From contig BTPG01000002.1 in assembly GCA_036245525.1 (NCBI GenBank), positions 124,845,212 through 124,909,211 of the forward strand: a stretch of 64,000 bases of DNA. The letters are read 5' to 3'. This DNA is from Semisulcospira habei (lineage: Eukaryota > Mollusca > Gastropoda > Semisulcospiridae). Position numbers and translations under genes: made by a program. Below the pieces are notes generated by a model. That model had not been told where the DNA came from and did no database searches. It saw only the letters and a list, made by a program, of their open reading frames with translations. Below, in pieces: positions 1,948 to 62,740 of this stretch (its first letter is position 1; every line of letters starts with the position of its first letter).

Positions 1948-2200
1948 CTCTTTCACTGCTTAGAGAAATTGAACATCACCCACCTGCAAGAGTAGATCCT
2001 CATGAGCCCCCAACGTTATGGGGGCTCCATGAAGATCTATGCCTCTTGCTGCAACCACTGTATGTCCATGTTGATTGATGTCTGGGGATCTTGTAGTTGT
2101 ACATTGAATTTCAAGACCAGTCTGTGTCCATGTTGATTGATGTCTGGGGATCTTGTACATTGAATTTCAAGACCGGTCTATGTCCACTGGCGGTAAGGGG
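1948..2200. mobile_element. TTAA hairpin element, family 2 (CATGAGCCCC)
   Basis: Flanked by TTAA at 1944-1947 and 2201-2204. The inner hairpin at about 1983-2053 pairs AGATCCTCATGAGCCCCC with GGGGGCTCCATGAAGATC. The right part contains an internal direct duplication of about 65 bp (ATGTCCATGTTGATTGATG repeated). The ends resemble other family 2 termini. The right TTAA is shared with the next element. Confidence 0.75.
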
Positions 2201-2204
2201 TTAA

Positions 2205-2409
2205 CCCTTTTCATCCTGATACACTTTGGCTTGAAATACTTTTTACTATGAAAGTTCAAGGGTGGTGCCAGAATAGCTTGGCGCCTGAGGCGCAAAGCTA
2301 TTCTGGCACCACCCTTGAACTAAAACAGTGGATCTATCACCTAATCAGCAATAGAGCCCTCATAGGACAATAAGCAAAATGTAATAATTCAGCCTAAGGA
2401 TGTAATGGG
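2205..2409. mobile_element. TTAA hairpin element, family 1 (GGCGCC core)
   Basis: Flanked by TTAA at 2201-2204 and 2410-2413. Ends begin CCCTTTTCATCCTGATAC and finish GATGTAATGGG. The central palindrome at about 2253-2323 pairs AGTTCAAGGGTGGTGCCAG with the reverse arm CTGGCACCACCCTTGAACT. TTAA duplication and CCC ends suggest a non-autonomous piggyBac-like element. No ORF. Confidence 0.8.
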
Positions 2410-2413
2410 TTAA

Positions 2414-2441
2414 CAATTCCAGGGCTGCATGCACCAGGGGG
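2414..2441. mobile_element. mini TTAA element
   Basis: A 28-bp segment between TTAA 2410-2413 and TTAA 2442-2445, ending GCATGCACCAGGGGG. It shares its left TTAA with the preceding family 1 element and closes the chain of TTAA-separated segments begun at 1910. Confidence 0.4.
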
Positions 2442-2847
2442 TTAATTGTCTAGATTTTTGTTGCTGTAGCAGACAATGAACTGATTTCATGGATGGGTTT
2501 GATTTGATTGCTTCTATGCACTATACTCACGGAGAAGAGAACCAAATTTGAAAAATCGACTTGTTCCCTTCAACTTACAGGTAGTGCAGGGAACTTAAGG
2601 AAATGCAGATTTTTATTTTTGGAACAGTAGAAGTAGTGAATATATTCTGCTATGTTCTTTGGCCGTGGGTGTTTTTTTTTTGTATATTTTTTATACCCCT
2701 TTCTATAGTGATTTTTTTTTTCTTTCTTTCAGAATATCTTATCGTTTTGTTGTGAATACTCTAAGAGTTTAAACCTTGGTGACAATGTTATTTAGCGAGT
2801 CAGAAATAGTATTGTTTCAAGTGAAAAGTGTGGGGCTGAATCATAAA

Positions 2848-2924
2848 ATGTGTGCTGACCTTTGATTTTGTGTCCAACATCCTATATATATGTAAGGTCC
2901 AAAATTACAGACCATCACATGTTA
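2848..2924. repeat. hairpin family 3, degenerate copy
   Basis: TGTGCTGACCTTTGATTTTG on the left pairs imperfectly with CCAAAATTACAGACCATCAC on the right, around an AT-rich loop. The rest of 2446-3105 is AT-rich with no recognised gene. Confidence 0.5.
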
Positions 2925-3159
2925 ATAATAGTTTCAGGCATAAATCGGATTCAGAGTTGGAATTCAATATGGTATATCAAGTGAGCTGCTGGTTTTCCAC
3001 AAGCAGTAGAATGTTTATTTACAGCTGTTTGTCTTTCATAGCTTTATTTCATTATTTTTTATTTAGGGTCATTTGCCTTGTTTTGTAAATGAATTCATTT
3101 TTTCATTAACCCCCTTGTGTGTGAAGCCACTGCCACAGCAGCACCTGTTTTAACCCGCC

Positions 3160-3292
3160 TTAACCCCACAGCCGCATTTCCAAACTTTTGGGGGCGTCAA
3201 ACGACTATGTAGGTGACAAGCTCCTATGGCACTACCCTTGAATTATGATCAATCCATCTCCTGCTGCAGGGTCTCAGGGCTAAATGGGTTAA
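3160..3292. mobile_element. TTAA element family 1, internally deleted
   Basis: Starts at TTAA 3160-3163 followed by CCCCACAGCCGC and ends GGGCTAAATGGG before TTAA 3289-3292. It keeps the distal flanking segment (CAAACTTTTGGGGGCGTC) and the right palindrome arm (GGCACTACCCTTGAATTATG), but most of the left arm is missing. Confidence 0.65.
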
Positions 3293-3413
3293 GTGACCAC
3301 CCTCCCCTTTTGAGAGATCACCTGTCATTAAAGGCCATCATTTAGGTGGTGGTAGTGACTGAAATGCTGGTCTTTGGTGACAGGTGACACTTTTTGCCAC
3401 ATCAAGATTTCTC

Positions 3414-3633
3414 TTAACCCATTTAGCCCCGAGTCCCTACAGCAGGAGATGGCTTGACCATGGTGCACATAACTCAAAGGTAGTGCCAGATTAGCTTGGC
3501 GCCTGTAGGTGCCAAGCTAAACTGGCAGTGCCCTTGAGTTATCATGGTCAAGCCATCTCCTGCAACTGGTACATAGTCGTTAGGCAACACCTCCAAAATT
3601 TCAGAAATGGTACCTTGGGGCTAAAAGGGTTAA
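3414..3633. mobile_element. TTAA hairpin element, family 1
   Basis: Complete copy. TTAA 3414-3417, end CCCATTTAGCCCCGAGTCC, palindrome at about 3450-3562 (CAGCAGGAGATGGCTTGACC versus GGTCAAGCCATCTCCTGC), and the end GGGGCTAAAAGGG before TTAA 3630-3633. Core variant AGATTAGCTTGGCGCC. Confidence 0.85.
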
Positions 3634-4636
3634 CGACCACAATTATCCTTGCAGAAAAAAATGGTCGTGTTCTTTACAATGCTGATTGCTGCACGCACAA
3701 GGGGGTTGTAATTGCAAGGTGCTACCTGTTCCTTGGGTTCTCTCTCGTTCACCACCGACTCGCTGCAAGCTATTTCTGGCGTGAACCATCCTGATTTCCA
3801 CTCTTGAATTGTGACTGAATGCAAGACTAAGAATTTCACCGAGTATTTATGAATTGTTGAGTTTGCCGTCTGTGTGCGTAGGTAAGTGAACTGTGTGAAT
3901 GATGCGTGAAAACTGTACAGGTCTTTTTTGAATTTGTATGCACTGTGCAACAGCAAGTCCTTTGTTTAAGGCAGACTGAGTTAATGCGACACATCAGGCT
4001 GTAACTGAGCTTCAGCTCTTTGTGACATCTTCAGGAAATGGATTGACCGTGGTATTCAAGGGTAGTGCCTGATTAGCTTTGTGCTATCAGGCGCTAGCCT
4101 TGAACTGCCATGGTCAACACATGTTCTGGTTCAGGTGTTTCGGCTCGAGTAGATGTGTTGCTAGCACGTTTCTTTCATGTTTTTGGACAAGAGATTCTTG
4201 TGATAGCATTCCAGTCACTATGTCCACCGAATTTCTGTTTTCTTACGTTGTGCGTATTGTTTTGGTTGTACTAATTATGTAAGTGCATGAATCCTTTCAT
4301 CAGGTGACAGTTGGGGAAATGTATTTGGTGTAGATGATCTATATTCACTTTTTGTTCTCGCATAACTTTGAGTGTGTGCAAGGGAGCGTTGAAGCAAAGC
4401 ATGTCTGACCAAGGGTTGTGTGGCGCAGAGAATGAATGTGTGGGTGTTCGTGCGAGAGAAAGGAGCGAAGTAGGGGAGAGGCTGATTATGGACATGTTGT
4501 ATGCAGTTGTGCCCGTATAAAACGCTTATTTGTATGTATAAATTGTACTGTGAGAATTAAATCTTTATGCCGAATCTAGTGGATTTTTTTTCTTCCTAGG
4601 TACAGCAAGACCCGTTTGACAAGGTGTTGCCCATCA
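3634..4636. other. no recognised gene; possible poly(A) signal
   Basis: No supported coding sequence. A degenerate family 1 hairpin lies at about 4030-4125 (TTCAAGGGTAGTGCCTGATTA). AATTAAATC at 4555-4563 could be the poly(A) signal of a plus-strand transcript ending near 4580, which would converge on LRRCC1. That is speculative. Confidence 0.35.
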
Positions 4637-4804
4637 TTAACCCTTTTTATCCTGATACACCATTGACTGATAGTTCAAGGGTGGTGCCAAGCTATTCTGG
4701 CACCCCCTTTGAACTAAAGTGGTTGCATCTCCTAATTTGTAATGTAGCTTTCATAGGGCATTAATGCACGTTTAAAAAAAATCAGCCTCGATGTAATGGG
4801 TTAA
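4637..4804. mobile_element. TTAA hairpin element, family 1, short core
   Basis: Flanked by TTAA 4637-4640 and 4801-4804. Ends CCCTTTTTATCCTGATAC and GATGTAATGGG match the copy at 2205-2409. The palindrome AGTTCAAGGGTGGTGCCA / TGGCACCCCCTTTGAACT has lost the GGCGCC centre. Confidence 0.8.
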
Positions 4805-4969
4805 AGACCATCATATAGGTGGCTGAATGACGGATCTCTTGTAATGGTGACCACTCCAGCCACAGTACTGCATGCATCCACGATGTAAATTTCAGCGGCG
4901 GCATACTAAAGAGACTTGTACTTCAGAAATTCACTCAAACTTGTAAATTAAAATGGACAACCAAGCACT

Positions 4970-5053
4970 TGTTGGGCTGTCGGTAACACTGTCTGTCTTG
5001 GTGAATCTTGCAGACGTCTTGTCAAGAAGCGCTACCGACAACCAGAGGATTAA
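4970..5053. mobile_element. hairpin family 5 (CTGTCGGTAACG), degenerate
   Basis: GGGCTGTCGGTAACACTGTC on the left pairs with AAGCGCTACCGACAACC on the right, ending at TTAA 5050-5053. Same family as 17092-18715, 50541-50633 and 50751-50839. Confidence 0.6.
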
Positions 5054-5074
5054 AATGTACGCAAAGTAGACGGA

Positions 5075-5227
5075 CTGACCATGATAATTCAAGGGTAGTG
5101 CCAGATTAGCTTGGCGCCTGAAGGTGCCAAGCTAATATGGCACTACCCTTGATTTGTCATGAATAGATTGCCTGCAAACAGGTGCATAGCCTGCAACAGG
5201 TGCATAGCCGTGGGTTAAATGAGTTAA
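5075..5227. mobile_element. family 1 hairpin, partial
   Basis: Palindrome GACCATGATAATTCAAGGG ... CCCTTGATTTGTCATG with core TAGCTTGGCGCC/GGTGCCAAGCTA. The right flank has a small direct duplication of CAGGTGCATAGCC. The right end is near TTAA 5224-5227; no left TTAA is visible. Confidence 0.65.
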
Positions 5228-8130: not shown

Positions 8131-11100
8131 CACACTATAAGTTTTTGGTAGCGGGGGTTTGCTACACGGACCCTTGTAGGCCTGAGGGAGGTCAACGGAA
8201 CCATTGTACCCCGTAGGCCTGAGGGGTACAATGGTTCCTTTGACTTCCCGAAGGCCTACAAGGGTCCGTGCAGCAAGCACCTACTACCAATAACGTATTA
8301 TTTTGTTTTCATTCCTCCACTATTTTCCTAAAAGAAATCAAGAAGACATCTTCCAACCTGGATCACACCAGACACGACTGACGTCAAAAGAATATACATT
8401 TAAACATAATAGACTTATGACGTAATTTAAAATATATCATGACGTTGCCGTCTCCAGTACTGAGTGTGCTTGTTGTTTCGAACAACACTAAGTAACTTTT
8501 TACTTTAGAATGTTTTGGTGATCTTTTATAGAAAACTCGCATCCAAGATGCGTCATGAAGAGGGCTACATGAAGTCCGCCATTTGTCGCTACCATTTGTA
8601 TCACGGTCACATGGTGCGGTTTGCGCTAAAGATACTGGTCGTGTGACGTAGGGATGAAAACAATATAAGTTATTGGTCGCAGGGGTTTGCTACACGGACC
8701 CTTGTAGGCCTGACGGAGGTGAAAGGAACCACTGTACCCCGAAGGCCTGAGGGGTATATTAAATTTAGTTCCTTTGACCTCCCGAAGGCCTACAATGGTC
8801 CGTGCAGCAAGCACCTGCTACCAATAACGTATTTGTTTTCATCCCTCCACTATTTTCCTAAAAGAAATCAAGAAGACATCTTCCGACCTGGATCACGCCA
8901 GACATGACTAACGTCAAAGGAATATACATTATATATATATATGCTAACCGTGTCGCTGCGACCACACTACTTGCCACGTGAATTCGGCCAGCTGACTATA
9001 ATTACCGTTTATGTTCCGGGTCCCGACTTCAAAGCTGCAGCTGAGACGATCGCTGACTGTTATTCTAGAGTGGTATCAAACTATCCTGACCAGCTTTATT
9101 CTTGGCGACTTCAATCAGTGCGATCTAACACCACACCTCTCTCTACAACAGTACATTACATGTCCTACAAGACTTAATCGCACCATTGATCTCTGCTTTG
9201 GCAACATTGACGATGCGTTTAAGCCGTTGTGTAGGCCCCCACTGGGGCGCTCGGACCACAACGTCATACACTTGTTGCCAAAGTATAGACAAAAAATAAA
9301 GACGTCCAAGACTGTAACGAAAACCACACAGCTGTGGACACCGGACAGCATGGAGGAGCTCCGTGGGTGCTTTGAGGCGACAGATTGGGATATGTTTACT
9401 CATAACTGTGATGACCCTAATGAACTTGTTGAGACAGTCACTTCTTACGTAAGATTTTGTGAGAACACTGTAATTAAAACCAAGACAGTGAAGGTGTTTG
9501 CTAACAATAAGCCATGGGTCAGCAAGGAGCTAAAGGTGTATTGGAACCAGAAGAAACTGGCTTTCTTACAGGGTAACACCGATGAATTTCGGGAAAAGGA
9601 GAGGGATTTTAGAAGGGCTGCTAGGACTGCCAGACTGAACTATAAAAGCAAGATCGAAACAAAATTTTCTTCTGGCAACGCTAGAGATGCATGGAATGGT
9701 CTGAACGGCATGATGGGTAGGCAGCAAAAGAAACAAGCCAGGCTCTGCACTGGGAATCCATTTGAGATGGCCAATGATCTAAATCGTTTTTACTCACGGT
9801 TCGATGGCAGAAACTTTAGTGATAACTGTGATGAATTGTGCCAGTCCATTGTGCCGGAACCTTTGTCAATTACTGAAGAGGAGGTAGTAAACATCTTTTC
9901 TAAGCTGAATGCACACAAAGCACCTGGACCAGATGGGTTAGGTGGAAGAGTATTGAAAACCTGTGCAGGTCAATTGGGGAAGATCTTCACTACTATCTTT
10001 CAGTTCCTGCTTGATCATCATACTGTCCCTACGGCTTGGAAATCATCAATCATTGTCCCGATTCCTAAAAAAACCAACGCTCATGAATTCAACGATTTCC
10101 GTCCAGTTGCACTGACTTCCATTCTGTCAAAATGTATGGAAAAAGTGGTGAGGAGGCATCTGTTAAATGATGTTGCCGAACTACTGGATCCATTCCAATT
10201 TGCTTACAAAAACCATAGGGGTGTGGAGGATGCATGCCTTACTCTGTACAATCTTGTATTTCAACATCTTGAGAAATCAAAAGCACATGTGAGAATTCTT
10301 TTTATTGACTTTTCTAATGCTTTTAATACTGTTGAACCACTGATGCTTTTGCAGCGTATGATGGACTTTAATGTGAACACAAACATTATTCTGTGGGTGC
10401 GAGACTTTTTGAAGGACAGGCCACAACGTGTAAATGTACACGGCAGTCTGTCTGACCAAGTGGTGCTAAATTCAGGCTGCCCTCAAGGTTGTGTCCTCTC
10501 TCCGACATTGTTTTCTATATACACAGACCATATGGCGTTGTCACACTGCCACTTCTCGTCTCTTAAAGTTCTCAGACGACATGGCCCTTGTACGCCTACT
10601 CCAAAAAGAAGACAGTCTGACCGAGTACTTTGCACAGATAGCAGTATTAGAGTCATGGTGCAAAGATAGTTTTCTGGAAATGAATGTACAGAAAACCAAG
10701 GAACTCGTCATTGATGACAGGAAAGTTGATGATATTTTTGTACCTGTCTCAATTAATAATCAACCTGTTGAGGTGGTCACTGAATTTAAGTACCTTGGCA
10801 CAGTCGTGGATAGTGGGCTGTCCTTCACTGGAAACACTGATCTGATTGTGAAAAAAGCAAACCAGCGTCTGTACCTTCTTAGGAAACTGAGAAGTTTTGA
10901 TGTCAGTTCCAGGGTTTTAGAATCCGTTTATAGAAGCCTGATCGAAAGCATACTGACGTTTAACATCACTGCTTGGTATGGCAATCTCAGTATGAAAAAC
11001 AGGGGCAGACTGTCACGTATCGTCAGAACAGCTGAGAAGATCATTGGCCTAGGACAGTACCCAGTAGATGATCTGTACCACAGAGCTGTCCGAAGGATAG

Positions 11101-12271
11101 CTGCTAGCATTGTCAATGATCCTCGTCACCCACTCTCTGATCAGTTTCAAATGCTACCATCAGGCAGACGTTTCAACATGCCACTTGCCAAAAGGAATGT
11201 TTTTAAGAAGTCTTTTATTCCAACTGCTGTCTCGATTTTGAACTCTCGTTTATAACGCCGCGATAAGTATGATCTACTTAACATTACCTCCCATCTTGTG
11301 ACAGATTGCTTGTGATGGATTGCTGCAATGATAATTTTTCATGATATGCTTTTGCAGCGTTTGTTAATGTCTTATATTGTTGTTTCATGACGAGCCGAAA
11401 GGCAAATTTCTGTCGTGCCTGGACTCGAACAGACAATAAAGTTGTATTGTATTGTATTGTATTGTATTGTATTTATACATAATAGACTTATGACGTAATT
11501 TAAAATATTTCATGACGTTGCCGTCTCTAGTACTGAGTGTGCTTGTTGTTTCGAACAACACTAAGTAACTTTTTTACTTTAGAACGTTCTGGTGATCTTT
11601 TATAGAACAAAACTCGCATCCAAAGAGAGCTACAAGAAGTCCCGGGCCGCCATTTGTGGCTACAAGGGTTTTTGTTTTCCTCCCTACGTCACACGACCAG
11701 TCACTTTAGCGCAAACCGTACCATGTGACCGTGATATAAAAACCCCTGTAGCGAAAAATGGCGGACGTTTTGTAGCCCTCTCGATGACGCATCTTGGATG
11801 CCAGTTTTGTTCTACAAAAGATCGCCAAACGTTCTAAAGTACAAAGTTACGTAGTGTTGTTCGAAACAACAAGCACACTCGGTACTAGAGAGGGCAACGT
11901 CATGACATTTTAAATTACGTCATAGTCTATTATGTATAAATGTATATTCATTTGGCGTCAGTCATGTCTGACGTGATCCAGGTCGCAAGATGCCTGCTTG
12001 ATTTCTTATAGGAAAATAGTGGAGGAATGAAAACAAATACGTTATTGGTCAGAGGGGTTCGCTGCACGGAGCCTTGTACCCCTTCGGGAGGTCAAAGGAA
12101 TCATTGTACCCCTCAGGCCTTCGGGGTACAATGATTCTTTTGACCTCCCTCAGGCCTACAAAGGTCCGTGTAGCGAACCCCTCCGACCAATAACTTATAT
12201 TGTATCACGGTCACATGGTACAGTTTGCGCTAAAGAGACTGGTCGTGTGACGTAGGGATGAAAACAATCAA
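8131..12271. mobile_element. fold-back complex of inverted hairpin modules
   Basis: Three copies of a hairpin of about 140 bp (8158-8283, 8690-8822, 12050-12190; CTACACGGACCCTTGTAGGCC type arms) are separated by a module of about 370 bp (TAACGTATT ... GTAGGGATGAAAACAAT). The module occurs at 8290-8670, at 8824-11700 (interrupted by a LINE) and inverted at 11745-12045, giving arms of about 230 bp around 11715. A further fragment in direct orientation follows at 12190-12271. No transposase. It resembles a fold-back DNA element that duplicated on itself. Confidence 0.75.
8935..11470 (+). mobile_element. CR1-group non-LTR retrotransposon, 5'-truncated, frameshifted
   Basis: Begins inside the endonuclease domain and ends AATAAAGTTG(TATTG)n. 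Coding frames are 8941-9100, 9100-10560 and 10560-11255. Visible motifs are endonuclease LILGDFN and SDHN, RT APGPDG, PKK..DFRPVALTS, FIDFSNAFNT, PQGCVLSPTLFS and the FSDD active site, then the C-terminal WYGN and LPSGRRFN that are typical of Rex1/CR1-like elements. One frameshift is near 9100 and another just before FSDD. It sits in the fold-back module at ATATACATT/TTTATACAT; the uninterrupted version is at 8390-8420. Confidence 0.85.
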
Positions 12272-12656: not shown

Positions 12657-12792
12657 CTAACTCCTTCACTGCCCAAACACCAGCCAACTGCAAGAGACAC
12701 AGAACCACATGAGCCCCCGCAGTTGCGGGAGCTCATGTGGTTCTGTGTCTCTTGCTGGTTTTATTTATGTCTGCGTCCTCTTGCCAGTGAAG
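12657..12792. mobile_element. TTAA-type hairpin element, family 2, covariant arms
   Basis: Left end CTCCTTCACTGCCC after CTAA, right end GCCAGTGAAGG. The palindrome reads CACAGAACCACATGAGCC on the left and GGAGCTCATGTGGTTCTGTG on the right. Both arms differ from the family consensus (AGATCCTCATG / CATGAGGATCT) at the same paired positions. Confidence 0.8.
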
Positions 12793-14559: not shown

Positions 14560-14687
14560 CAGAGCCAGCGACCATGATAGTTCAAGGGTGGTGTCGGAAT
14601 AGCTTGGCGCCAAGCTATTCTGACACCACTGAACTATCATGGTTGACCCACATCCCGTTGCAGTGGCGGCTGCACAAACAAGGGAGT
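14560..14687. mobile_element. TTAA hairpin element, family 1 (intronic)
   Basis: GACCATGATAGTTCAAGGG ... ACTGAACTATCATGGTTGACC, core GAATAGCTTGGCGCCAAGC with no loop. The variant GGTGTCGG is matched by TGACACC. Right end AAGGGAG before TTAA 14687-14690. Confidence 0.75.
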
Positions 14688-16888: not shown

Positions 16889-17091
16889 TTAAACCCCAGA
16901 CACACCACAGCAAGATATTGATCGACCATGATAGTTCAAGGGTGATGCCAGAATAGCTTGGCGCCTATGGGCGCCAAGCTATTCTGGCATCACCCTTGAA
17001 CTATCATGGTCGATCCGTGTCCTGCACTGCAATGCAGTCTTTAGAGAACGGCAAAATTTGAGGTTTTCGGTGTTGGGGTAGAATGAGTCAA
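16889..17091. mobile_element. TTAA hairpin element, family 1, perfect 45-bp arms
   Basis: TTAA 16889-16892, right end GGGGTAGAATGAG before TCAA 17088-17091. The arms 16921-16965 and 16970-17014 are perfectly complementary around a TATG loop. The variant GGTGATGCC (left) is matched by GGCATCACC (right). The right boundary is shared with the family 5 element that follows. Confidence 0.88.
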
Positions 17092-18715
17092 CCCTTTGGC
17101 TGTCGGTAACGGTTTTCATCGCGACGATTCCGGCAGGATGTCAGGGTGTTGTTATTCCTGCAGGATGTCAGGGTGTTGTTATTCCTGCAGGATGTCAGGG
17201 TGTTGTTATTCCTGCAGGATGTCAGGGTGTTGTTATTCCTGCAGGATGTCAGGGTGTTGTTATTCCTGCAGGATGTCAGGGTGTTGTTATTCCTGCAGGA
17301 TGTCAGGGTGTTGTTATTCCTGCAGGATGTCAGGGTGTTGTTATTCCGGCAGGATGTCAGGGTGTTGTTATTCCAGCAGGATGTCAGGGTGTTGTTATTC
17401 CTGCAGGATGTCAGGGTGTTGTTATTCCTGCAGGATGTCAGGGTGTCGTTATTCCTGCAGGATGTCAGGGTGTCGTTATTCCTGCAGGATGTCAGGGTGT
17501 CGTTATTCCTGCAGGATGTCAGGGTGTTGTTATTCCGGCAGGATGGCAGGGTGTTGTTATTCCGGCAGGATGTCAGGGTGTTGTTATTCCTGCAGGATGT
17601 CAGGGTGTTGTTATTCCTGCAGGATGTCAGGGTGTTATTATTCCTGCAGGATGTCAGGGTGTTATTCCTGCAGGATGTCAGGGTGTTGTTATTCCTGCAG
17701 GATGTCAGGGTGTTGTTATTCCTGCAGGATGTCAGGTGTTGTTATTCCGGCAGGATCTCAGGGCATTGTTATTTCTGCAGGATGTTGTTATTCTGGCAGG
17801 ATGTCAGGGTGTTGTTATTCCTGCAGGATGTCAGGGTGTTGTTATTCCTGCAGGATGTCAGGGTGCTGTTATTCTGGCAGGATGTCAGTCAGGATGTTGT
17901 TATTCCGGCAGGATATCAGTCAGGATGTCCGTCAGGATGTTGTTATTCCTGCAGGATGTCAGGGTGTTGTTATTCCGGCAGGATGTCAGGGTGTTGTTAT
18001 TCCTGCAGGATGTCAGGGCGTTGTTATTCCTGCAGGATGTCAGGGTGTTGTTATTCCTGCAGGATGTCAGGTGTTGTTATTCCGGCAGGATGTCAGGGCG
18101 TTGTTATTTCTGCAGGATGTCAGGGTGTTGTTATTCTGGCAGGATGTCAGGGTGTTGTTATTCCTGCAGGATGTCAGGGTGTTGTTATTCCTGCAGGATG
18201 TCAGGGTGCTGTTATTCTGGCAGGATGTCAGTCAGGATGTTGTTATTCCGGCAGGATATCAGTCAGGATGTCCGTCAGGATGTTGTTATTCCTGCAGGAT
18301 GTCAGGGTGGTGTTATTCCGGCAGGATGTCAGGGTGTTGTTATTCCAGCAGGATGTCAGGGTGTTGTTATTCCTGCAGGATGTCAGGGTGTTGTTATTCT
18401 GGCAGGATGTCAGGGCGTTGATATTCCTGCAGGATGTCAGGGTGTTGTTATTCCGGCAGGATGTCAGGGTGTTGTTATTCCTGCAGGATGTCAGGGTGTT
18501 GTTATTCCTGCAGGATGTCAAGGTGCTGTTATTCCGGCAGGATGTCAGTCAGGATGTTGTTATTCTGGCAGGATGTCAGTCAGGATGTCCATCAGGATGT
18601 TGTTATTCCGCCAGGATGTCAGTCAGGATGTTGTTATTCCAGAAGGATGTCACTCAGGATGTTGTTATTCCGGCAGGAATCATCGCGACAAAAAACGCTA
18701 CCGATACCCCTACAG
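17092..18715. mobile_element. hairpin family 5 element expanded by a tandem array in its loop
   Basis: The left arm CCCTTTGGCTGTCGGTAACG...CATCGCGACGATTCC (17092-17133) and the right arm GGAATCATCGCGACAAAAAA...GCTACCGAT (18677-18705) are the two halves of the family 5 hairpin. In compact copies (50751-50839) they enclose only CCTGCAGG. Here the loop holds about 1.54 kb of 27-bp repeats. Confidence 0.85.
17146..18680. repeat. 27-bp tandem array, about 57 units
   Basis: Unit GGATGTCAGGGTGTTGTTAT plus TCCTGCA. Variants carry CGGCA, TGGCA or CAGCA, and higher-order blocks with GGATGTCAGTCAGGATGT recur at about 17880-17940, 18230-18290 and 18535-18680. The unit is 9 codons without stops, so frames stay open for 441, 549 and 340 codons; the encoded repeat (MSGCCYSCR and similar) is judged an artefact. 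It lies in the LRRCC1 intron between exons 18874-18987 and 14785-14879. Confidence 0.95.
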
Positions 18716-18873
18716 GGCGAAAGTCAACTTCGCTTATAACAGGGTCAGCCGGTTATAGCAACACACGTTTTGTATGTAATACACTTCGCTTATAACAAAC
18801 TGCGGACATAGTAACAAGAGATTGGTTCCCAGCCACTGTGTTATATCCCACGTTTGCTGTGTCTGTTACTGAC

Positions 18874-19280: not shown

Positions 19281-19478
19281 TTATCTCATTCTACCCCAGA
19301 CACACCACAGCAAGATAAGGATCAACCATGATAGTTCAAGGGTGATGCCAGAATAGCTTGGCGCCTATGGGCGCCAAGCTATTCTGGCATCACCCTTGAA
19401 CTATCATGGTCGATCTGTGTCCTGCAGAGGACAACGGCAAAATTTTAGGATTTCAGTCTTGGGGGTAGAATGAGTTAA
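19281..19478. mobile_element. TTAA hairpin element, family 1 (intronic)
   Basis: Left end CTCATTCTACCCCAGACAC after TTAT, right end GGGGGTAGAATGAG before TTAA 19475-19478. Perfect palindrome with the GGTGATGCC / GGCATCACC variant, like 16889-17091; these two are close sister copies. Confidence 0.87.
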
Positions 19479-19484
19479 GACGCA

Positions 19485-19575
19485 GAACAACCGTGATAGT
19501 TCAAGGATGGCGCCTAATGGCGCCAAGCTACCCTTGCACCATCTTTGAACTATCACGGTCAGTCCAAATTTTGTT
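19485..19575. mobile_element. family 1 hairpin, shortened
   Basis: CCGTGATAGTTCAAGGATGG / CCATCTTTGAACTATCACGG. The G in CCGTGAT is matched by C in ATCACGG, another paired change relative to CCATGAT / ATCATGG. The core is reduced to GGCGCCTAATGGCGCC. Confidence 0.7.
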
Positions 19576-20525: not shown

Positions 20526-20680
20526 TTAAGGAGACACTGACCATAAGAGTTCAAGGGTGGTGCCAAAATAGCTTGGGGCCCCAGAGGTGCCCCAAGCTAT
20601 TCTAGGCACCATCCTTGAACTTGGACTATCATGGTTGATGCATATATCTTTGTATAGTGTTTCAGGGCTGAATGTGTTAA
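20526..20680. mobile_element. TTAA hairpin element, family 1, altered core
   Basis: TTAA 20526-20529 and 20677-20680. The core is AGCTTGGGGCCC / GGTGCCCCAAGCT instead of GGCGCC, with both arms changed together. The right arm has a small insertion (TTGG). Followed directly by an A run and G-rich sequence. Confidence 0.78.
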
Positions 20681-22812: not shown

Positions 22813-22904
22813 GTAGTTACTGGTTGAACCTGAAACTGGCTCCATTCTGGTGCATTTCTTGAAACGCCACCGACTTCTTACCCACCCACCCCTCCCCCCC
22901 CCCC

Positions 22905-24780
22905 ACCCTCCTCCAGTTTGATATCTGCACTGACCCCCTCCCCCCCACCCCAACCCTCCTCCAGTTCGACATCTGCACTGACCCCCTCCCCCCCACCCTC
23001 CTCCAGTTCGATATCTGCACTGACCCCCTCACTCCCACCCTCCTCCAGTTCGATATCTGCACTGACCGGCACTGACCCCCTCCCCCCCCTCCTCCAGTTC
23101 GATATCTGCACTGACCCCTCCCCCCCCCCTCCTCCAGTTCGATCTGCACTGACCCCCTTCCCCCCCCCCCTCCTCCAGTTCGATATCTGCACTGAACCCC
23201 TCTTCCCCCCCCCCACCCTCCTCCAGTTCGATATATGCACTGACCCCCCCCCCCCCTCCTCCAGTTCGATATCTGCACTGACCCGCCCCCCCCCCCCCAC
23301 TCTCCTCCAGTTCGATATCTGCACTCACCCCCTCCCCCCACCCTCCTCCAGTTCGATATCTGCACTGACCCCCTCCCCCTCCCTCCTCCAGTTCGATATC
23401 TGCACTGACCCCCTCCCCCCACCCTCCTCCAGTTCGAGATCTGCACTGACCCCCTCCCCCCACCCTCCTCCAGTTCGATACCTGCACTGACCCCCTCCCC
23501 CCCCCCCCCAGTTCGACATCTGCAGTGACCCCCTCACCCCACCCTCCTCCAGTTCGATATCTGCACTGACCCCGTCCCCCCCCCCAATCTCCTCCAGTTT
23601 GATATCTGCACTGACCCCCCCCCCCCTCCTCCAGTTCGATATCTGCACTGACCCCTCCCCCCCACCCTCCTCCAGTAAGATATCTGCACTGAGCCCCTCC
23701 CCCACCCTCCTCCAGTTCGATATCTGCACTGACCCCCCCCCCCCTCCTCCAGTTCGATATCTGCACTGACACCCTCCCCCCCTCCTCCATTTCGATATCT
23801 GCACTGACCCCCACCCTCCTCCAGTAAGATATCTGCACTGACCCCCTCCCCCACCCTCCTCCAGTTCGATATCTGCACTGACCCCCCCACCCTCCTCCAG
23901 TTCGATATCTGCACTGACCCCCTCCCCGCCTCCTCCAGTTCGATATCTGCACTGACCCCCTCCTCCCCACCCTACCCCCCACCCTCCTCCGATATCTGCA
24001 CTGACCCCCTCCCTCCCCCCACCCTCCTCCAGTAAGATATCTGCACTGACCCCCTCCCCCACCCTCCTCCAGTTCGATATCTGCACTGACCCCCTCCCCC
24101 CCTTCCTCCAGTTCGACATCTGCACTGACCCCCTCCTCCCCACCCTACCCCCCACCCTCCTCCAGTTCGATATCTGCACTGACCACCTCCTCCATATGTG
24201 CACTGACCCCCTTTCCTCCCCCCCCCCCTCCAGTTCGATATCTGCACTGACCCCCTCCCCCCCCCCCACCCTCCTCCAGTTCGATATCTGCACTGACCCC
24301 CTCCCCTCCTCCAGTTCGATATCTGCACTGACCCGCTCCCCCCACCCTTCTCCAGATCGATATCTGCACTGACCCCTCCCCCCCCCCCCCCACCCTCCTC
24401 CAGTTCGATATCTGCACTGCCCCTCCCCCCCCCCCCTCCAGTTCGATATCTGCACTGCTCCCCTCCTTCAGTTCGATATCTGTACTGACCCCTCCCCCCC
24501 ACCCTCCTCCTGTTCGATATCTGCACTGACCCCCCCCCCCTCCTCCAGTTCGATATCTGCACTGACCCCCTCCCCCCACTCTCCTCCAGTTCGATATCTG
24601 CACTGACCCTCTCCCCCCCCCCCACCAGTTCGATATCTGCACTTACCCCCTCCCCCCCCCCCCCCCCCAGTTCGATATCTGCACTGCCCCCCTCTTCCAG
24701 TTCGATATCCGCACTGACCCCCTCCCCCCCCCCCACTCTCCTCCGATATCTGCATTGACCCCCTCCCCCCCCCCCCCCAA
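22905..24780. repeat. C-rich minisatellite, about 41-bp unit, 45+ copies
   Basis: Unit CACCCTCCTCCAGTTCGATA plus TCTGCACTGACCCCCTCCCC. The C run varies from 3 to 16 bases, so the period drifts. A block without CTCCAG occurs at about 23990. Strong strand bias: minus strand is G-rich. Long frames on both strands are artefacts. In the LRRCC1 intron between exons 26289-26388 and 20821-20909. Confidence 0.95.
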
Positions 24781-25018
24781 TTATCATCCAAGTGGTGCTT
24801 AATCCCCCCCCCCCACCCCCCCCCCCCCCCCCCCGCCTTCCTCCTCGTTCACACTTTCAATATTTCAACGACGCACTTTCGCACACGTTGCGTGTCAGTC
24901 AATCTAGTTTCTATCACCGGCCTACCAAAGTACCCCAACCACATGTAGGCACTGGTGCCCGTTACCAAATCAGGTCATTGATCAGTAGGAGTTTGGTTAT
25001 TTTGCAGAGTTAGTGCTT

Positions 25019-25089: not shown

Positions 25090-25190
25090 GAGGGGTGTGT
25101 GGGTTTTGGCGTGAGAGAGTCAGTATGGAAGTGCCCGCTGCACTCAGGGGCTGGAACGTCATCACAGTGCACTCCAGTACATGCACCCAT

Positions 25191-25357
25191 ACGGGCCTGA
25201 CGACGGTGCTTTGACGAAATGAAAATCCGCTGCGCCACCGTGTGCGCGCTACTGCATCTAGTTCAATTCGGAATTTTAATTGCCCTAGGATGCGGTAGCG
25301 TGCACGCGGTGGCGCAGCGGATTTGCATTTCGTCAAAGCACCATCGTCAGGCCCCTA
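25191..25357. mobile_element. unassigned hairpin element, 65-bp arms
   Basis: GGGCCTGACGACGGTGCTTT at the left pairs with AAAGCACCATCGTCAGGCCC at the right. The arms continue through GACGAAATG and CGCTGCGCCACCG, with a spacer of about 30 bp. Single copy in the window, so a MITE is inferred only from structure. Confidence 0.7.
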
Positions 25358-25556
25358 AGCATGCACCGTACCTGTCCTGACCTCTTGGTCTGATGAGTCG
25401 GTGAGTTTTCTGACAGTCTGGCTGGGGCTTTGAATGTCTCTCACGTCCTTTTCCGGTCAGTATATAATTAGAGGATTTTCATGCTAATGGCTTAATTTCT
25501 GTCTTAGTCACTTGTTTAACTGTTCTTTTAATACTGCCTGTCCCTCCCCCGGAAAG

Positions 25557-26504: not shown

Positions 26505-26680
26505 TAGTTATCCTCTGAGGACTGCATTACAAGTCAAGGAGACAGATCGACCATGATAGTTCAAGGGTGGTGGCAGAATAGCTTGGCGCCTATGGGCGCC
26601 AAGCTATTCTGCCCCCCACCATTGAACTATCATGGTCGAGCCATATCTTGCGGTGGTGTGTCGCGGGCAGAATGAGTTAA
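26505..26680. mobile_element. TTAA hairpin element, family 1
   Basis: GATCGACCATGATAGTTCAA ... TTGAACTATCATGGTCGAG, core GAATAGCTTGGCGCCTATGG, right end GCAGAATGAG before TTAA 26677-26680. That TTAA is also the left boundary of the next element. Confidence 0.82.
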
Positions 26681-27383: not shown

Positions 27384-27600
27384 TTAACCCTTTCATCCGT
27401 GATACACCACAGCAGGAGACGCACCACAAATGATAGTCCAAGGGCGGTGCCAGAATAGCTTGGCGCCTCCCGGCGCCAAGCTATTCTGGCACCACCCTTG
27501 AACTATCATTGCCAAGATATATCCTGCACTGAAATGCAGTCCAGTCATTGCAGGACAGCTGCGTGAATTTCCAAGTCAGGCGTCAATGCGTGTAACCCCC
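27384..27600. mobile_element. TTAA hairpin element, family 1
   Basis: TTAA 27384-27387 then CCCTTTCATCCGTGATAC. Palindrome AATGATAGTCCAAGGGCGG ... CCACCCTTGAACTATCATT, core TTGGCGCCTCCCGGCGCCAA. The right end near 27595 (GCGTCAATGCGTGTAACC) is degraded. Confidence 0.8.
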
Positions 27601-29204: not shown

Positions 29205-29415
29205 TTAAACCATTGTGCCGAAATTGAAATCCCCAAACTTTGGAGCCGTCCTCTGAAGACTGTATTACAATGCAGGAGGCGTGTCGATCATGACAGTTGA
29301 AGGGTGGTGCAAGAATAGCTTGGCGCCTGTGGGCGCCAAGCTATTCTGGCACTGCCCTTGAACGATCATGGCCGATCCATGTCTCGCGGTGGTGGGTCGG
29401 GACAGAATGAGTTAA
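29205..29415. mobile_element. TTAA hairpin element, family 1
   Basis: TTAA 29205-29208, palindrome GATCATGACAGTTGAAGGG ... CCCTTGAACGATCATGGCCGATC, core TAGCTTGGCGCCTGTGGGCG, right end CAGAATGAG before TTAA 29412-29415. That TTAA is shared with the next copy. Confidence 0.82.
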
Positions 29416-33189: not shown

Positions 33190-33413
33190 TGAACCCTTAT
33201 CATTCGCAATACACCAGTGTGTAAAATAAGTTTGACTAAAATAGTTCAAGGGTAGTGCCAGAATAGCTTGGCGCCTCTAGGAGCCAAGCTATTCTGGCAC
33301 CACCCTTGAACTAAAGCCGTTGGTCTATATCCCTTTCTGTAAGTACTATAATGTAGCGTGCATATGGCAGTGTACACATTTGAAGCTTTTAGCCTCAGTA
33401 TGATATGGGTTAA
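33190..33413. mobile_element. TTAA hairpin element, family 1
   Basis: Left end CCCTTATCATTCGCAATAC after TGAA, palindrome AGTTCAAGGGTAGTGCCAG / TGGCACCACCCTTGAACT, right end ATGATATGGG before TTAA 33410-33413. Belongs to the CCCTTTTCATCCTGATAC subgroup. Confidence 0.82.
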
Positions 33414-47222: not shown

Positions 47223-47443
47223 TTAACCCATTCAGCCCGACGCACGTATTTCCCAAATTTTGGAGGCGTCACCTAACGACTATGCACCTGTTACAGGAGA
47301 TGGATCGACCATGATAATTCAAGGGTAGTGCCAAATTGGCATATCGCTTGGCGCCGACAGGTGCCAAGCGAATCTGGCACTACCCTTGACTTATCATGGT
47401 CGATCCATCTCCTGCTGTAATGCGTCAGGGCTGAATGGGTTAA
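47223..47443. mobile_element. TTAA hairpin element, family 1, complete reference copy
   Basis: TTAA 47223-47226 and 47440-47443. Termini CCCATTCAGCCCGACGCACG and GCGTCAGGGCTGAATGGG form a terminal inverted repeat of about 18 bp. Flank CAAATTTTGGAGGCGTCACC. Palindrome CAGGAGATGGATCGACCATG / CATGGTCGATCCATCTCCTG. Best copy for defining the ends. Confidence 0.92.
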
Positions 47444-50307: not shown

Positions 50308-50504
50308 TCAACTCGACATCCTCAAATTTTGGAGTTGAGCTCTGAAGACTGTATTACAATTTAGGAGACACATCGACCATGACAGTTCAAGGGCGGTGTC
50401 AGAATAGCTTGGCGCCTATGGGCGCCAAGCTATTCTGACACCGCCCTTGAACTATCATGGTCGATCCATATCTTGCTGTGGTGTGTTGGGACTGAATGGG
50501 TTAA
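50308..50504. mobile_element. TTAA hairpin element, family 1, covariant arms
   Basis: The left boundary TCAA is near 50308. The palindrome carries GGGCGGTGTC (50391-50400), matched by GACACCGCCC (50437-50446). Right end GGACTGAATGGG before TTAA 50501-50504. Confidence 0.87.
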
Positions 50505-52665: not shown

Positions 52666-52732
52666 TCTGCAAGAGGCACAGATGCTCATGAGCCCCTGCC
52701 ATGAGCATCTATGCCTCCTGCTGGCATGAGTC
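52666..52732. mobile_element. family 2 hairpin, short, covariant
   Basis: AGGCACAGATGCTCATGAGC / CATGAGCATCTATGCCTCCTG around CCCTGC. Consensus TCCTCAT / ATGAGGA is replaced by TGCTCAT / ATGAGCA in both arms. Confidence 0.78.
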
Positions 52733-56852: not shown

Positions 56853-57509
56853 AGATCGGAATTCCCGAATTCTGGAATTGTTCTCTGAAGATTGTATTAC
56901 AAGTTAGGAGACAGGTCGGCCATGATAGTTCAAGGGTGGTGCCGCAATAGCTTGGCGCCTATAGCTATTCCGGCACCACCCTTTAACTATCATGGTCGAT
57001 CCAAGTTTTGCTGTGCCCCAAGATCGAAATCCCCGAATTCTGGAATAAATTGTTCTCTGAAGACTGTATTTCAAGTCAGGAGACAGGGTCGACCATGATA
57101 TAATACAAGGGTTGTGACAGAATAGCTTGGCGCCTATAGCTATTCCGGCACTATCATGGTCGATCCATATTTTGCTGTGGTGTTTCGGGGCTAAATGAGT
57201 TAAACATACATGCAGTTGTGATCTTATACAACTTTCATCTTTCTGCGGAAAAAAAAAATCACACATACAACCATTTAACGAAAAAAAAAAATCTCTCAGC
57301 GCTTGTTAAAAAAAAATATCTCAGCACTTGTTAAAAAAAAATCTCTTACCGCTTGTTAAACACGCATGATGCTGTATCTGATTAGCTTGGACATGGTGTG
57401 AATGATTGCCTTTCACATCGAAGCAAGCGCACGCCGCACTCGAAAAATGAACTTAGCAGGTCAGAAAAAGGGACTGGAGATCCCTGTCTATACTGACAAG
57501 GCAAAGTCC

Positions 57510-57720
57510 ATAAACTCATTCAGCCCGACGCACGTATTTCCCAAATTTTGGAGGCGCCGTCATCTAACGACTATGCACCTGTTGCAGGAGATGGATCGAC
57601 CATGCTAATTCAAGGGTAGTGCCAGATTAGCTTGGCGCCTGTCAGCTAATCTGGCACTACCCTTGAATTAGCATGGTCGACCCATCTCCTGCTGTAGTGC
57701 GTGAGGGCTGAATGGGATAA
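57510..57720. mobile_element. TTAA-type hairpin element, family 1
   Basis: Flanked by ATAA on both sides (57510, 57717). Termini CTCATTCAGCCCGACGCACG and GCGTGAGGGCTGAATGGG. Arms carry CATGCTAATTCAAGG / CCTTGAATTAGCATG, a paired change relative to CATGATAATTC / GAATTATCATG. Core reduced to GGCGCCTGTC. Confidence 0.87.
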
Positions 57721-58551: not shown

Positions 58552-58559
58552 TACTCACG

Positions 58560-59332: not shown

Positions 59333-59545
59333 TTAACGCATTCAACCCCAGCGCCCTACGGCAGGAGATCGATCGACCATAATTCAAGGGTAGTGCCAGA
59401 TTAGCTTGGCGCCATCAGGCGCCAAGCTAATCTGGCACTACCCTTGAACTATCACGGGTTGATCCATCTCCTGCAACTGGTACACATTTTGTTAGGTGAT
59501 ACTTCCAACATTTGGGAAATGCGACCGTGGGATCAAATGGGTTAA
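59333..59545. mobile_element. TTAA hairpin element, family 1, complete
   Basis: TTAA 59333-59336 and 59542-59545. Ends CGCATTCAACCCCAGCG and GTGGGATCAAATGGG. Palindrome AATTCAAGGGTAGTGCCAGA / TCTGGCACTACCCTTGAACT, core TTGGCGCCATCAGGCGCCAA. Confidence 0.88.
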
Positions 59546-59754
59546 TTTTTGCTGATCGGCAAAGTCTCCTCAAAGACTCAGGGAAATACTGGTACATAAT
59601 TCAGCCTGATGTCTGGAATGGGTTGTTACATTGCAATTTCTGTGCAGCACGTAATTCATGTCGTAAAAGAGGTGTTTCATAACACAAAGCGTGAAATTTG
59701 CTGATCGCCAACATGAAGTCGCTTCAAAACGCAGGAACATACTACAGACAGTGC

Positions 59755-59935
59755 CTTCAAGAGGCGTAGATCTATTCCTCTTGAAGGACTGGTGGCTTTC
59801 CATGGTTCTTGGCCTGTGTTTTCGCACAAATGCACTTTATTCTGATCTCCCAATAACCGCCTGAAATGCTGAAAAAACATGCCAAGTGATTTCACCAGCA
59901 ACAGGCATAGATCCTCATGAGCCCCCGCATCTTTC
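59755..59935. mobile_element. two family 2 remnants
   Basis: 59757-59790 TCAAGAGGCGTAGATC / TTCCTCTTGA and 59898-59935 AACAGGCATAGATCCTCATG then AGCCCCCGCA without the right arm. Confidence 0.55.
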
Positions 59936-59992
59936 AATATATTTGCTGGCACAGTGACCTAATACTGTTACCGCAGTAACCTGTGTCAATAT

Positions 59993-60478
59993 ACGGTACA
60001 TCTACACACGTTCAGATTTTGAGGCCGATTCTTGGGCAGTTTCGAATCGGAGTGTGATCGGACCGGACAACAAAAACGTGTGCACTGCCACACATTCCCC
60101 GACTTTTTTTTAGTCGACCGATTTGAATCGAAGATCAAGGTCGTACCTGTTCAGCGAAATGGCTGCCAGTTTTGACAGTGATGATGATGTGCTTGCATTA
60201 TCAGCAGTTTTGCATCATATTCGGGAAGAGGCGGGCGAAACATCGGCAACGAAGGTGGTACTGATCTTCCGCCATTTTCAAACTGAAACGACATGCTTTG
60301 CGAGACGCGCTCTGATTGGTTGAAGCTTACAATCGGGGCCGATTCGGATCGGAAAAATAGAGCAGGTTCTAGACACCCGATTGGGATCGGATCGGATCGG
60401 ATATGATGTCATCCGATCGCAATCGGATCGGAATCGGCTTCAAAATCGGGGCACAACCGGCATGTGTGGTGGGACCTT
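59993..60478. mobile_element. PIF/Harbinger-like element remnant
   Basis: The ends share GATTTTGAGGCCGATTC (left) and its reverse counterpart GAATCGGCTTCAAAATC (right). The right terminus CATGTGTGGTGGGACC before TTTA fits a three-base TWA-type target. Repeated GATCGGATCGG inside. Encloses a short frame at 60159-60240 (plus). Confidence 0.55.
60159..60323 (+). pseudogene. possible Harbinger transposase N-terminus remnant
   Basis: A short open frame begins MAASFDSDDDVLALSAVL. Acidic-then-hydrophobic starts like this open many HARBI1-type transposases. It runs out after about 55 codons with no DDE region. The call rests on this resemblance and the context, so it is weak. Confidence 0.35.
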
Positions 60479-60556
60479 TAGCAAGATGAATAGGCTGATC
60501 CTCACTAGTCCCCGCATCTCCGGGGGCTCATGAGGATCTATGCCTCTTGCAGATGG
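60479..60556. mobile_element. family 2 hairpin, interrupted at its right flank
   Basis: GATCCTCACTAGTCCCCGC / GGGGGCTCATGAGGATCTATG, ending CCTCTTGCAGATGG where the SINE-like element is inserted. Confidence 0.72.
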
Positions 60557-60950
60557 TTGGTTGGATGTACATTGCTTAACGTCCCGACAGCAACAAGACT
60601 TTCTCAGGACGTGCCTGCACTGCTTGCGAAAAAAAAAAAAACCATAAACAGAATATTGAATGTATGTCGCCAGCCGGTCTAATACGCCAAATAAACCTAC
60701 AACATGGGGCCTAAATAAACCTAAGACCATTTAGCAACACACATCCAATATCAAGATCTACAGGCAGCGCAGACAGTACGGAGAGTTTAGAAAAGGAAAA
60801 TACAGGTGAATGGACCAAGGGTAGACAGACACTAGACACATGCCCCAGAATAGAGGGGAAAACCCACCCTGTGGGGCTGACCAGGGTGATCCTGGGAACT
60901 AAAAAGTAGTTAACCCCACCCAAGTCCCCCAGGGCAGACCCGGGTGGGGG
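60557..60950 (-). mobile_element. SINE-like 390-bp retroelement, copy 3
   Basis: Target duplication TCTTGCAGATGG (60545-60556, 60951-60962). Tail (TTGG)n at the left. Same ends as copies 1 and 2, slightly more diverged. Confidence 0.87.
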
Positions 60951-61157
60951 TCTTGCAGATGGGTGCAGATCGCTCAAATGGTGTCTATTTGCTTCTGTCC
61001 TGCGGGGATGGTGTCTATTTGCTTCTGTCCTGCGGCGATTGAATTATTTTTTTTTTTTCTGGCGTGGGTGCTGGAGGACAAACGTGCTCAATAATTTAAC
61101 CCAAACTCTGAACACAAAACACAGTAGCAGCTGCAGATTCCGGCATTATAGTATAGC

Positions 61158-61368
61158 TTAACCCATTTAGCCCCGAGTCCCTATAGCAGATGTATTGATC
61201 ATGATAATTCATGGGTAGTGCCAGATTAGCTTGGCACCTGAAGGCGCCAAACTAATCTGGCACTACTCATGAATTATCATGGTCAATCCATCTCCTGCAA
61301 CTGGTACATAGTCATTAGGCAACACCTCCAAAATAGGAGAAATGGGACCTTGGGGCTAAAAGGGTTAA
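61158..61368. mobile_element. TTAA hairpin element, family 1, covariant arms
   Basis: TTAA 61158-61161 and 61365-61368. The arm reads AATTCATGGGTAGTGCC on the left and GGCACTACTCATGAATT on the right, with both sides changed from CAAGGG / CCCTTG. Ends CCCATTTAGCCCCGAGTCCC and TGGGGCTAAAAGGG. Confidence 0.9.
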
Positions 61369-61671
61369 AGCGACCTACTCCAGGCAACAAAAGGGTTAAC
61401 AGTTCGTTAACACCTTCACTGCTATTGGATTCAGGTTGTGTTTTTAAATCGTTGTTGAATCCAATCCCGTAGAGCAGCCAACCGTCCAAAGAAAATAGAT
61501 GCAAAGGGTTAAGCAAGACACATAGAATATGTTTTAATTGCCCTTTCTGAGCGTGTTTCTTCCTTTGCTTTTGTACTGTACACGCTTGGCAGTAACCTTT
61601 ATGGTCTGGACTTCCAGTTACCGCCCACGTTCAACTGCAGGAAATGAAAAGCTGACGGCTGTCCCTTCTTC

Positions 61672-62546
61672 CAGACCTGTGCCAACTATCTGGGTGTGAA
61701 GATTGATTCGATGCTCTCCATGCATGATCATATTATGGGTAGCGTCTGCCGAGCTGGTTTCCTTGAGCTGCGCAGAATTTTTTTCCCTCAGACCGTATCT
61801 CACAGAAAGTGCGGCGTCAAGAATTGTAAATGCATTCATTACGTCCAGGCTCGATTATTGCAATTCTGTACTGGCAGGTTTACCGGTAGACCAAATTTCA
61901 CGCTTGCAGATGATTCAAAACAATGCGGCGCGTCTTATCTTGAAAAAACGAAAGAGAGACCATGGTACGCCTCTACTGAAGCAGTTGCACTGGCTGCTCG
62001 TAAAATTCCGCTGCCAGTACAAAATTACAATTTTCGCCTATCTGCATTTTGACGGATCTCTCCCGCCGTACCTTTCTGCCAAGCTGTCTGTTTATCAGCC
62101 ATCACGCACCCTCCGTTACTCCAGTGAAAAACTTTTTAAAATCCCGAAGCTTAACATGAAAACTGTCAGGGAGCGTTCTTTCCCCTTTTTAGCCCCAAGT
62201 GTGTGGAACCCCCTGCCAATTGCAATGCGGAATCTGCCCACATTGTCACAGTTCAAAGCTCACATAAAAAGACTTTTCTTTCAGTTCTGTCGGGCATTTA
62301 ACATTTAGCTCACCTTTAGCTAACTGTTGACCGACTGCCTTTTATTCTGATCCCATAGGAAGTGAATGTAAGGTGTTGGAAAAGGATGGGGTGGTTTAAA
62401 GTAGTGTATAATCGTGTGTGTGTGTGTGTGTGTCTGAGAGAGACTGAGGGTGTGCTGTTGTGCATGCGCAGTGAGTCCAGTGTTTTCCTGGATAACAGCG
62501 CTATACAAGAACTATTTATTATTATTATTGTTATTATTATTATTGT
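61672..62546 (+). mobile_element. L2/CR1-type LINE 3' fragment
   Basis: Frames 61696-62052 and 61703-62308 encode the RT C-terminal region: LDYCNSVLAGLPVDQISRLQ, NNAARLILKKRKRDHGTPLL, LHWL, YQPSRTLRYSS, RERSFPFLAPSVWNPLPIAM, stop at 62306. The 3' UTR ends CGCTATACAAGAACTATTTA and (TTA)n. The main frame is intact over 200 codons. Confidence 0.9.
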
Positions 62547-62740
62547 TTAACCCTGTTAGCCCGAAAGTCCCATTTCTCAAATTTTGGAGGTGTTGCCTCA
62601 ATGACTATGTACCAGTTGCAGGAGATTCAAGGGTAGTGCCAGATTAGCTTGGCGCCTGAAGGCGCCAAGCTAATCTGGCACTACCCTTAAATTATCATGG
62701 TCAATCCATCTCCTGCTGCAGGGACTCGGGGTTAAATGGA
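62547..62740. mobile_element. TTAA hairpin element, family 1
   Basis: TTAA 62547-62550, CCCTGTTAGCCCGAAAGTCC. The left arm lacks GGATCGACCATGATAA (AGGAGATTCAAGGG), while the right arm keeps TTATCATGGTCAATCC. Right end GGGGTTAAATGG. Confidence 0.82.

Follow-up and report, generated by a model that had tools for sequence, protein, structure and literature searches.

Matched arm changes in the TTAA-bounded hairpin elements of a Semisulcospira habei contig are real and largely explainable by founder subfamilies

Hairpin element families in the window

In the present study, we analysed a stretch of 64,000 nucleotides (the window) on contig BTPG01000002.1 of the gastropod Semisulcospira habei, whose genome assembly comprises 1.98 Gb in 507 contigs. 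Short piggyBac-like elements that are bounded by TTAA and have a palindrome of about 110 nt abound in the window. An earlier note on this DNA had claimed that the two palindrome arms of one copy usually carry matching changes, and had proposed either mutual correction of the arms or selection for pairing. By eye, the window is eukaryotic in character, with long reverse-transcriptase-like reading frames and microsatellites. An Rfam scan of the window at the gathering threshold gave 0 matches, ARAGORN found 0 tRNA genes in it, and neither 25-base arm sequence matched the IMG/VR viral contigs exactly.

Two related hairpin families, A (arm ...GATAATTCAAGGGTAGTGCCAGATTAGCTTGGCGCC) and B (arm ...GATAGTTCAAGGGTGGTGCCAGAATAGCTTGGCGCC), are separated by three inner differences in arm consensus, each present on both arms, and in family B the outer arm consensus differs between the two sides. 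Family C (CATAGATCCTCATGAGCCCC) is a separate hairpin family unrelated to A and B. Complete elements run from TTAACCC to GGGTTAA over about 170-220 bp, with the palindrome between a short flank on one side and a long flank on the other, and have short terminal inverted repeats starting CCC, e.g. CCCATTTAGCCCC / GGGGCTAAAAGGG at 61158-61368 (read directly). Pattern matching for TTAACC[CT] and [AG]GGTTAA within 260 bp retrieved 6 of the 30 window hairpins; the right-end match of the hairpin at 62658 is internal, so that TTAA stands at both ends in 5 of 30, and for the remaining 25 one or both TTAA ends had no match. The piggyBac transposase domain PF13843 is abundant genome-wide (116 of 116 scored candidates match, of 1,058 first-look candidates), and many of the matches sit in long open frames. 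Short non-autonomous transposons with TTAA boundaries have the A and B hairpins as their cores, and their copy number is very high. A random sample of 20 stretches totalling 200 kb, in 13 of which some letters are N, held 94 A/B arms above 12 bits; at this density the whole genome would carry roughly 0.9 million arms.

Arm covariation against chance

The covariation of the arms is real and exceeds chance, as judged by permutation, that is, random re-pairing of arms within families. In the inner arms of A and B (32 columns; the 26 window copies with both arms aligned, copy 53310 having its 5' arm wholly masked), 12 identical double changes were observed against a permuted mean of 2.15, and 0 of 5000 permutations reached 12; the family assignment and column masks of this test were set by hand. 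The outer arm columns of the same 26 copies showed no excess of double changes (24 versus 26.6 permuted, P 0.71). Family C gave the same result as the inner arms, with 11 double changes against 3.7 in the 13 window copies with two recognisable arms (P 0.0014), 13 against 6.0 in all 18 window copies (P 0.005), 30 against 8.3 in 53 copies including fetched loci, and 18 against 5.1 in the 39 copies outside the window alone (0 of 4000 permutations in each of the last two).

The word "usually" in the earlier claim was an overstatement, since the inner-arm cells of the 26-copy core comprise 23 matched, 115 one-sided and 9 discordant cells. Among 81 A/B copies, drawn from the window, from eight hit loci and from 20 randomly placed stretches of 10 kb, 256 cells were one-sided, 51 paired and 21 discordant, one-sided cells being about five times commoner than paired ones. 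The 40 best whole-hairpin hits (30 paired cells, 14 of them C12T, and 116 one-sided) were picked by arm similarity and were not used as evidence. Here and below, position names such as G34A refer to the columns of a 55-column arm model.

Relatives chosen by flank and arm divergence

Nearest relatives were collected by flank, which kept the arms from influencing the selection, for A2 (relatives of 57585), A1 (relatives of 61185) and B, the B query also taking in about 14 bases of outer arm. Usable two-armed hairpins were obtained for 33 of 39 fetched loci in A2, 35 of 39 in A1 and 36 of 39 in B; these sets are best-scoring hits and are biased to young copies. Over all sites, paired cells numbered 4 versus 2.3 permuted in A2 (P 0.175), 25 versus 7.3 in A1 and 30 versus 11.0 in B, the last two values being unreached in 5000 permutations. 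Without CpG (cytosine-guanine) sites, the 33 A2 copies held 99 one-sided cells, 0 shared pairs and 1 singleton pair versus 2.2; the 35 A1 copies held 103 one-sided cells and the shared pairs A10C (9), T43G (3) and G8T (2); and the 36 B copies held 112 one-sided cells and the shared pairs C15G (13), G34A (6), A17G (3) and C37G (2).

Across the three samples, 38 of the 49 non-CpG paired cells were of shared types, and 31 of the 49 were C15G, G34A, A10C or A17G, types whose carriers have more similar flanks. Flank similarity was raised among carriers of C15G on both arms and of G34A on both arms (0 of 1000 shuffles each), of G34A on the short arm only (P 0.004), of A10C (P 0.013) and, marginally, of A17G (P 0.048), all P values being uncorrected for multiple tests; for T32C the association was tested and none was found. 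One-sided states were shared as well. Of 33 A2 copies, 13 have T32C confined to the long arm, A10C in A1 occurs on both arms in 9 copies and on the short arm only in 3, and G34A exists both short-arm-only and on both arms, with one fetched locus (L151) paired on the short-only flank class. In A2, position 10 differs between the two arm consensus sequences.

Dividing arm divergence within copies by that between copies gave ratios of 0.96 for A2, 0.75 for A1 and 0.76 for B before splitting. In the subsets defined with founder markers, the ratio was 0.95 (0.87-1.01) in A2, 0.94 (0.81-1.05) in B-C15G (13 copies) and 1.06 (0.95-1.15) in B-G34A (13 copies from several samples). Arms of the same locus were more alike than arms of sister loci in both A1 subsets and not in the A2, C15G and G34A subsets. 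In these three of the five subsets, therefore, each arm decays on its own and mutual correction is undetectable, and continuous correction in resident copies finds no support there. Because carriers have more similar flanks and three subfamilies show arm divergence within copies equal to that between copies, the larger part of the matched arm changes in A and B are subfamily markers inherited from founders. The earlier note had named amplification of a handful of founders, followed by decay of the arms, as the outcome that would overturn its reading; this is what we found for the larger part of the A/B signal. A1 keeps an excess.

One relative fetched with the A1 flank, L102, has a long flank 99% identical to that of 61158-61368 and carries paired G8C, G9T and G19A with no one-sided change.

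Genome-wide counts of arm alleles

Exact arms were counted genome-wide in one 24-base arm context, an exact 24-base match being demanded in both arms; partners were counted by hand in the first 100 places listed, on contig C1 (for T25A, C1 to C3). The consensus arm occurs 71,027 times, with an exact partner for 26 of 100 among the matches listed. G34A in the family B context has 43,397 arms and an exact partner for 40 of 100 among the matches listed, a count that leaves out one further +/- couple 90 bases apart, and A22C, a singleton of the A1 sample (L119), has 1,331 arms and a partner for 30 of 100 among those listed. Both behave like subfamilies born paired. For A28T (797 arms) and T25A (275 arms), exact partners were 0 of 100 among the matches listed in each case, and these alleles behave like decay after insertion. 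T32C (18,910 arms; 18 of 100 listed) and A20C (877 arms; 10 of 100 listed, i.e. 5 exact pairs) show mixed behaviour. Of twenty fetched A20C loci, 5 had been selected for being exact pairs and the other 15 followed the order of the listing; of these 15, 2 were paired with extra changes, 11 were one-sided and 2 had no resolvable hairpin.

At C1:7753511-7753975, four A22C arms follow one another on the same strand every 147 bases, which looks like hairpin sequence arrayed in tandem.

Subfamily markers and loop orientation

Among changes confined to a single hairpin, 3 of 62 allele types were paired, in a count that left out L001-L008, L029-L060, L178-L197 and copies with fewer than 25 shared columns. 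Among subfamily markers, 11 of 17 were paired by hand tally (Fisher P 3.9e-7 versus fresh changes): the three A/B differences, G34A, C15G, C37G, C37T, A39T, T24C, T43G and A22C. The six one-sided markers are A2 long-arm T32C, short-arm G34A, the E-like G33A, A20T and G19T, and long-arm G19A. Some form of coupling between the arms is needed to account for the large share of subfamily markers present on both, and something seems to pair the arms along amplifying lineages; the amplified one-sided variants argue against a strict need for pairing.

The 4-base loop was found in both orientations relative to the flanks by strict match, GACA in 7 and TGTC in 4 A2 copies (n=33) and TGAA in 6 and TTCA in 3 A1 copies (n=35); a looser hand count of the A2 orientations gave 12 and 7. 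Flank association of the A2 loops gave P 0.096 for GACA and P 0.84 for TGTC. The two orientations may stem from recurrent inversion, which fits template switching, or from two founders.

Window hairpins and the examples first noted

The catalogued hairpins of the window are as follows.

61158..61368, + strand: complete family A1 element, TTAA at both ends (TTAACCC...GGGTTAA); hairpin 61185-61297; paired A28T (61208/61261)
57585..57691: family A2 hairpin with paired A20C; degenerate element ends
47223..47443, - strand: complete family A element with TTAA ends; hairpin 47294-47414
3414..3633, + strand: complete family A1 element with TTAA ends; hairpin 3443-3562; paired A10C and T24C (26-copy alignment columns 32 and 53)
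4032..4128: family A-like hairpin of subgroup D; paired A39T, common to three other copies
5066..5161: family A hairpin
59362..59473: family A hairpin
62626..62715: family A1 hairpin
2201..2413: complete element with TTAA ends, E-like (by hand); hairpin 2245-2342; outer arms non-complementary
4637..4804: complete element with TTAA ends, E-like (by hand); hairpin 4661-4733
33230..33332: subgroup E hairpin with one-sided G33A
16911..17024: family B hairpin of the G34A subfamily (GGTGATGCC)
19311..19424: family B hairpin of the G34A subfamily
50363..50475: family B hairpin with paired C37T (4 of 81 copies) and paired T32C (GGGCGGTGTC)
26537..26650: family B hairpin with paired C37G (3 of 81 copies)
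14569..14656: family B hairpin with paired C37T
19478..19572: family B-like hairpin with paired A17G and G31A
20535..20645: family B-like hairpin with paired C51G
27414..27526: family B hairpin
29273..29384: family B hairpin; 8 one-sided and 0 paired inner changes
56906..57173: two tandem family B hairpins (56906-57009 and 57077-57173)
12688..12757: family C hairpin with four paired changes (CAGAACCACATG)
52667..52723: family C hairpin with a paired C to G change (GATGCTCATG)

All 12 strings quoted as examples of matched arms were located in the window. Four of the six examples are A/B hairpins; the other two, CAGAACCACATG at 12700 / CATGTGGTTCTG at 12734 and GATGCTCATG at 52681 / CATGAGCATC at 52700, belong to family C. 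The first A/B example, GGTGATGCC at 16941 and 19341 with GGCATCACC at 16986 and 19386, is the G34A subfamily with its 43,397 exact arms, and GGGCGGTGTC at 50391 / GACACCGCCC at 50437 carries C37T plus T32C. The strings TTCATGGGTAGTG at 61208 / CACTACTCATGAA at 61261 have one mismatch and are not full complements; the A28T of this copy is found in none of its 35 nearest relatives by flank. Similarly, the A20C of CATGCTAATTC at 57601 / GAATTAGCATG at 57665 is on neither arm in its 33 nearest relatives by flank. Among 53 family C copies, the changes of the 12700 example are G9A (paired in 7), T12C (2), and T16A and T19A (once each), and the C17G of the 52681 example is seen once.

In subgroup E (assigned by hand), the inner hairpin is shared, the outer arms are unmatched and G33A is on one arm only; its copies are window 33230-33332 and the fetched loci L002:78, L019:576, L020:5366, L024:6957, L025:2088 and L026:446. 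The fetched locus L012:8922 has G33A on both arms. The window also contains other long inverted repeats at 8137-8298, 8658-8839, 12028-12207 and 25182-25365, with arms of 72-90 nt that are 82-88% complementary, and two long minisatellite-like arrays at 17082-18758 and 22817-24856 with repetitive open frames in several frames.

Discussion

The pattern of matched arm changes is thus real and, in families A and B, largely explainable by founder subfamilies. Herein, we propose that in source lineages one arm is probably copied onto the other now and then, through template switching during replication or a comparable repair event at the quasi-palindrome. A change on one arm would thereby become paired at one stroke, and the pair would become a subfamily marker once the copy carrying it was amplified. 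One-step pairing of this kind is documented for template switching at imperfect inverted repeats. One report argues that hairpins arise through it and that it can contribute to their maintenance, the evidence for maintenance being circumstantial according to its authors (PMC8794818); others describe homogenised arms and inverted spacers (PMC8604942) and, in yeast, mutations extending identity between arms (PMC3820800). Rare arm copying together with founder amplification is probably enough for most of the data, so that neither constant correction nor a strict need for pairing is required.

Several results weigh against this proposal. The A1 ratio of within-copy to between-copy divergence stays low, at 0.72 with A10C (9 copies) and 0.80 without it (26 copies), and non-CpG singleton pairs numbered 7 versus 1.8 expected in A1 (P 0.002) and 3 versus 1.0 in B (P 0.075). 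Three of the seven A1 singleton pairs are in L102, and two more (A22C, T32C) are alleles paired elsewhere; the A1 excess remains unexplained. The shared pairs T43G (3 carriers), G8T (2) and C37G (2) are without flank association, and paired A20C stands on at least 4 flank or arm backgrounds, for which one founder is insufficient. Moreover, the tally of 11 in 17 was made by the author's hand and not blind, some of its markers are non-independent, and T43G and C37G lack flank support in it. An arm-copying event was never directly observed among the analysed copies. L102 is the best single candidate for a recent one; several neighbouring pairs also occur together in L182 and L180, and for all three loci founder history could account for them as well.

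The main rival holds that pairing itself is selected, only well-paired hairpins being mobilised, so that mismatched lineages die and compensated ones amplify. Subfamily markers are indeed paired far oftener than fresh changes, and the three inner A/B consensus differences are on both arms; yet one-sided states have been amplified (long-arm T32C in 13 of 33 A2 copies, short-arm G34A, E-like G33A), the A2 arm consensus sequences differ at position 10, and the outer arms of B and E-like copies are unmatched. We consider selection of this kind unlikely. Correction might otherwise be tied to transposition, a hairpin intermediate letting one arm template the other when an active lineage such as A1 moves or copies. 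If so, paired changes would enter at insertion rather than by later decay, which would explain why pairs mark lineages and some single A1 copies without accumulating in the residents of other subfamilies; we regard this variant as rather unlikely.

Continuous correction of the arms in every resident copy, through a cruciform or a replication hairpin as the earlier note had suggested, was our first expectation for the main cause after the permutation tests, and was dropped because the flank-chosen subfamilies spoke against it. The residual A1 excess, the three paired changes of L102 without a one-sided one and the several backgrounds of paired A20C would fit it, but there is no excess in the A2, C15G and G34A subsets, and the 100 listed matches each for A28T and T25A hold 0 exact pairs, so that such correction now appears quite improbable. 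It is very improbable that each founder re-formed its palindrome from one arm by inverted duplication. Matching would then be trivial at birth, giving perfectly matched founders without stepwise copying, but each side retains its own flank and arm states of its own, which shows that the palindrome was not wholly rebuilt from one side, and side-specific inner markers persisting in subfamilies are partly seen (T32C, G34A). Finally, chance and CpG mutation hot spots could strike the same site on both arms, and C12T in TCGA arms, C51T and G52A are CpG transitions that are probably recurrent; as a general cause this is refuted by the permutation tests, and with non-CpG pairs including transversions we give it hardly any credence.

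With exact arm copies numbering in the tens of thousands, this genome offers a natural experiment on how the pairing of a long palindrome persists. The results help to tell inherited covariation from that of ongoing correction, two patterns that are easily confused; covariation statistics of the window copies alone would have pointed to a conserved RNA or DNA structure.

Comparison with known systems

The A and B elements resemble piggyBac-type (TTAA) miniature inverted-repeat transposable elements (MITEs) in the TTAA that five complete window copies carry at each end, the CCC...GGG termini, the length of about 170-220 bp and the very high copy number, as well as in the abundance of the PF13843 transposase domain in the same genome. 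They differ in the long internal palindrome, which is common to related families with different flanks. A search for TTAA MITEs with arm covariation, covering titles and abstract starts in the open-access literature, found none, which is no proof of absence. As in the master copy (founder) model of transposon subfamilies, diagnostic changes are common to copies with similar flanks and are followed by independent decay, although many of the diagnostic changes here are matched pairs on two arms. With respect to quasi-palindrome correction by template switching, most of the signal here is inherited via transposon subfamilies and is undetectable per copy in three of the five subsets; the likeness would lie in the homogenised inverted-repeat arms, compensatory double changes and, possibly, spacer inversion described for such correction (PMC8794818, PMC8604942, PMC3820800, PMC7202029).

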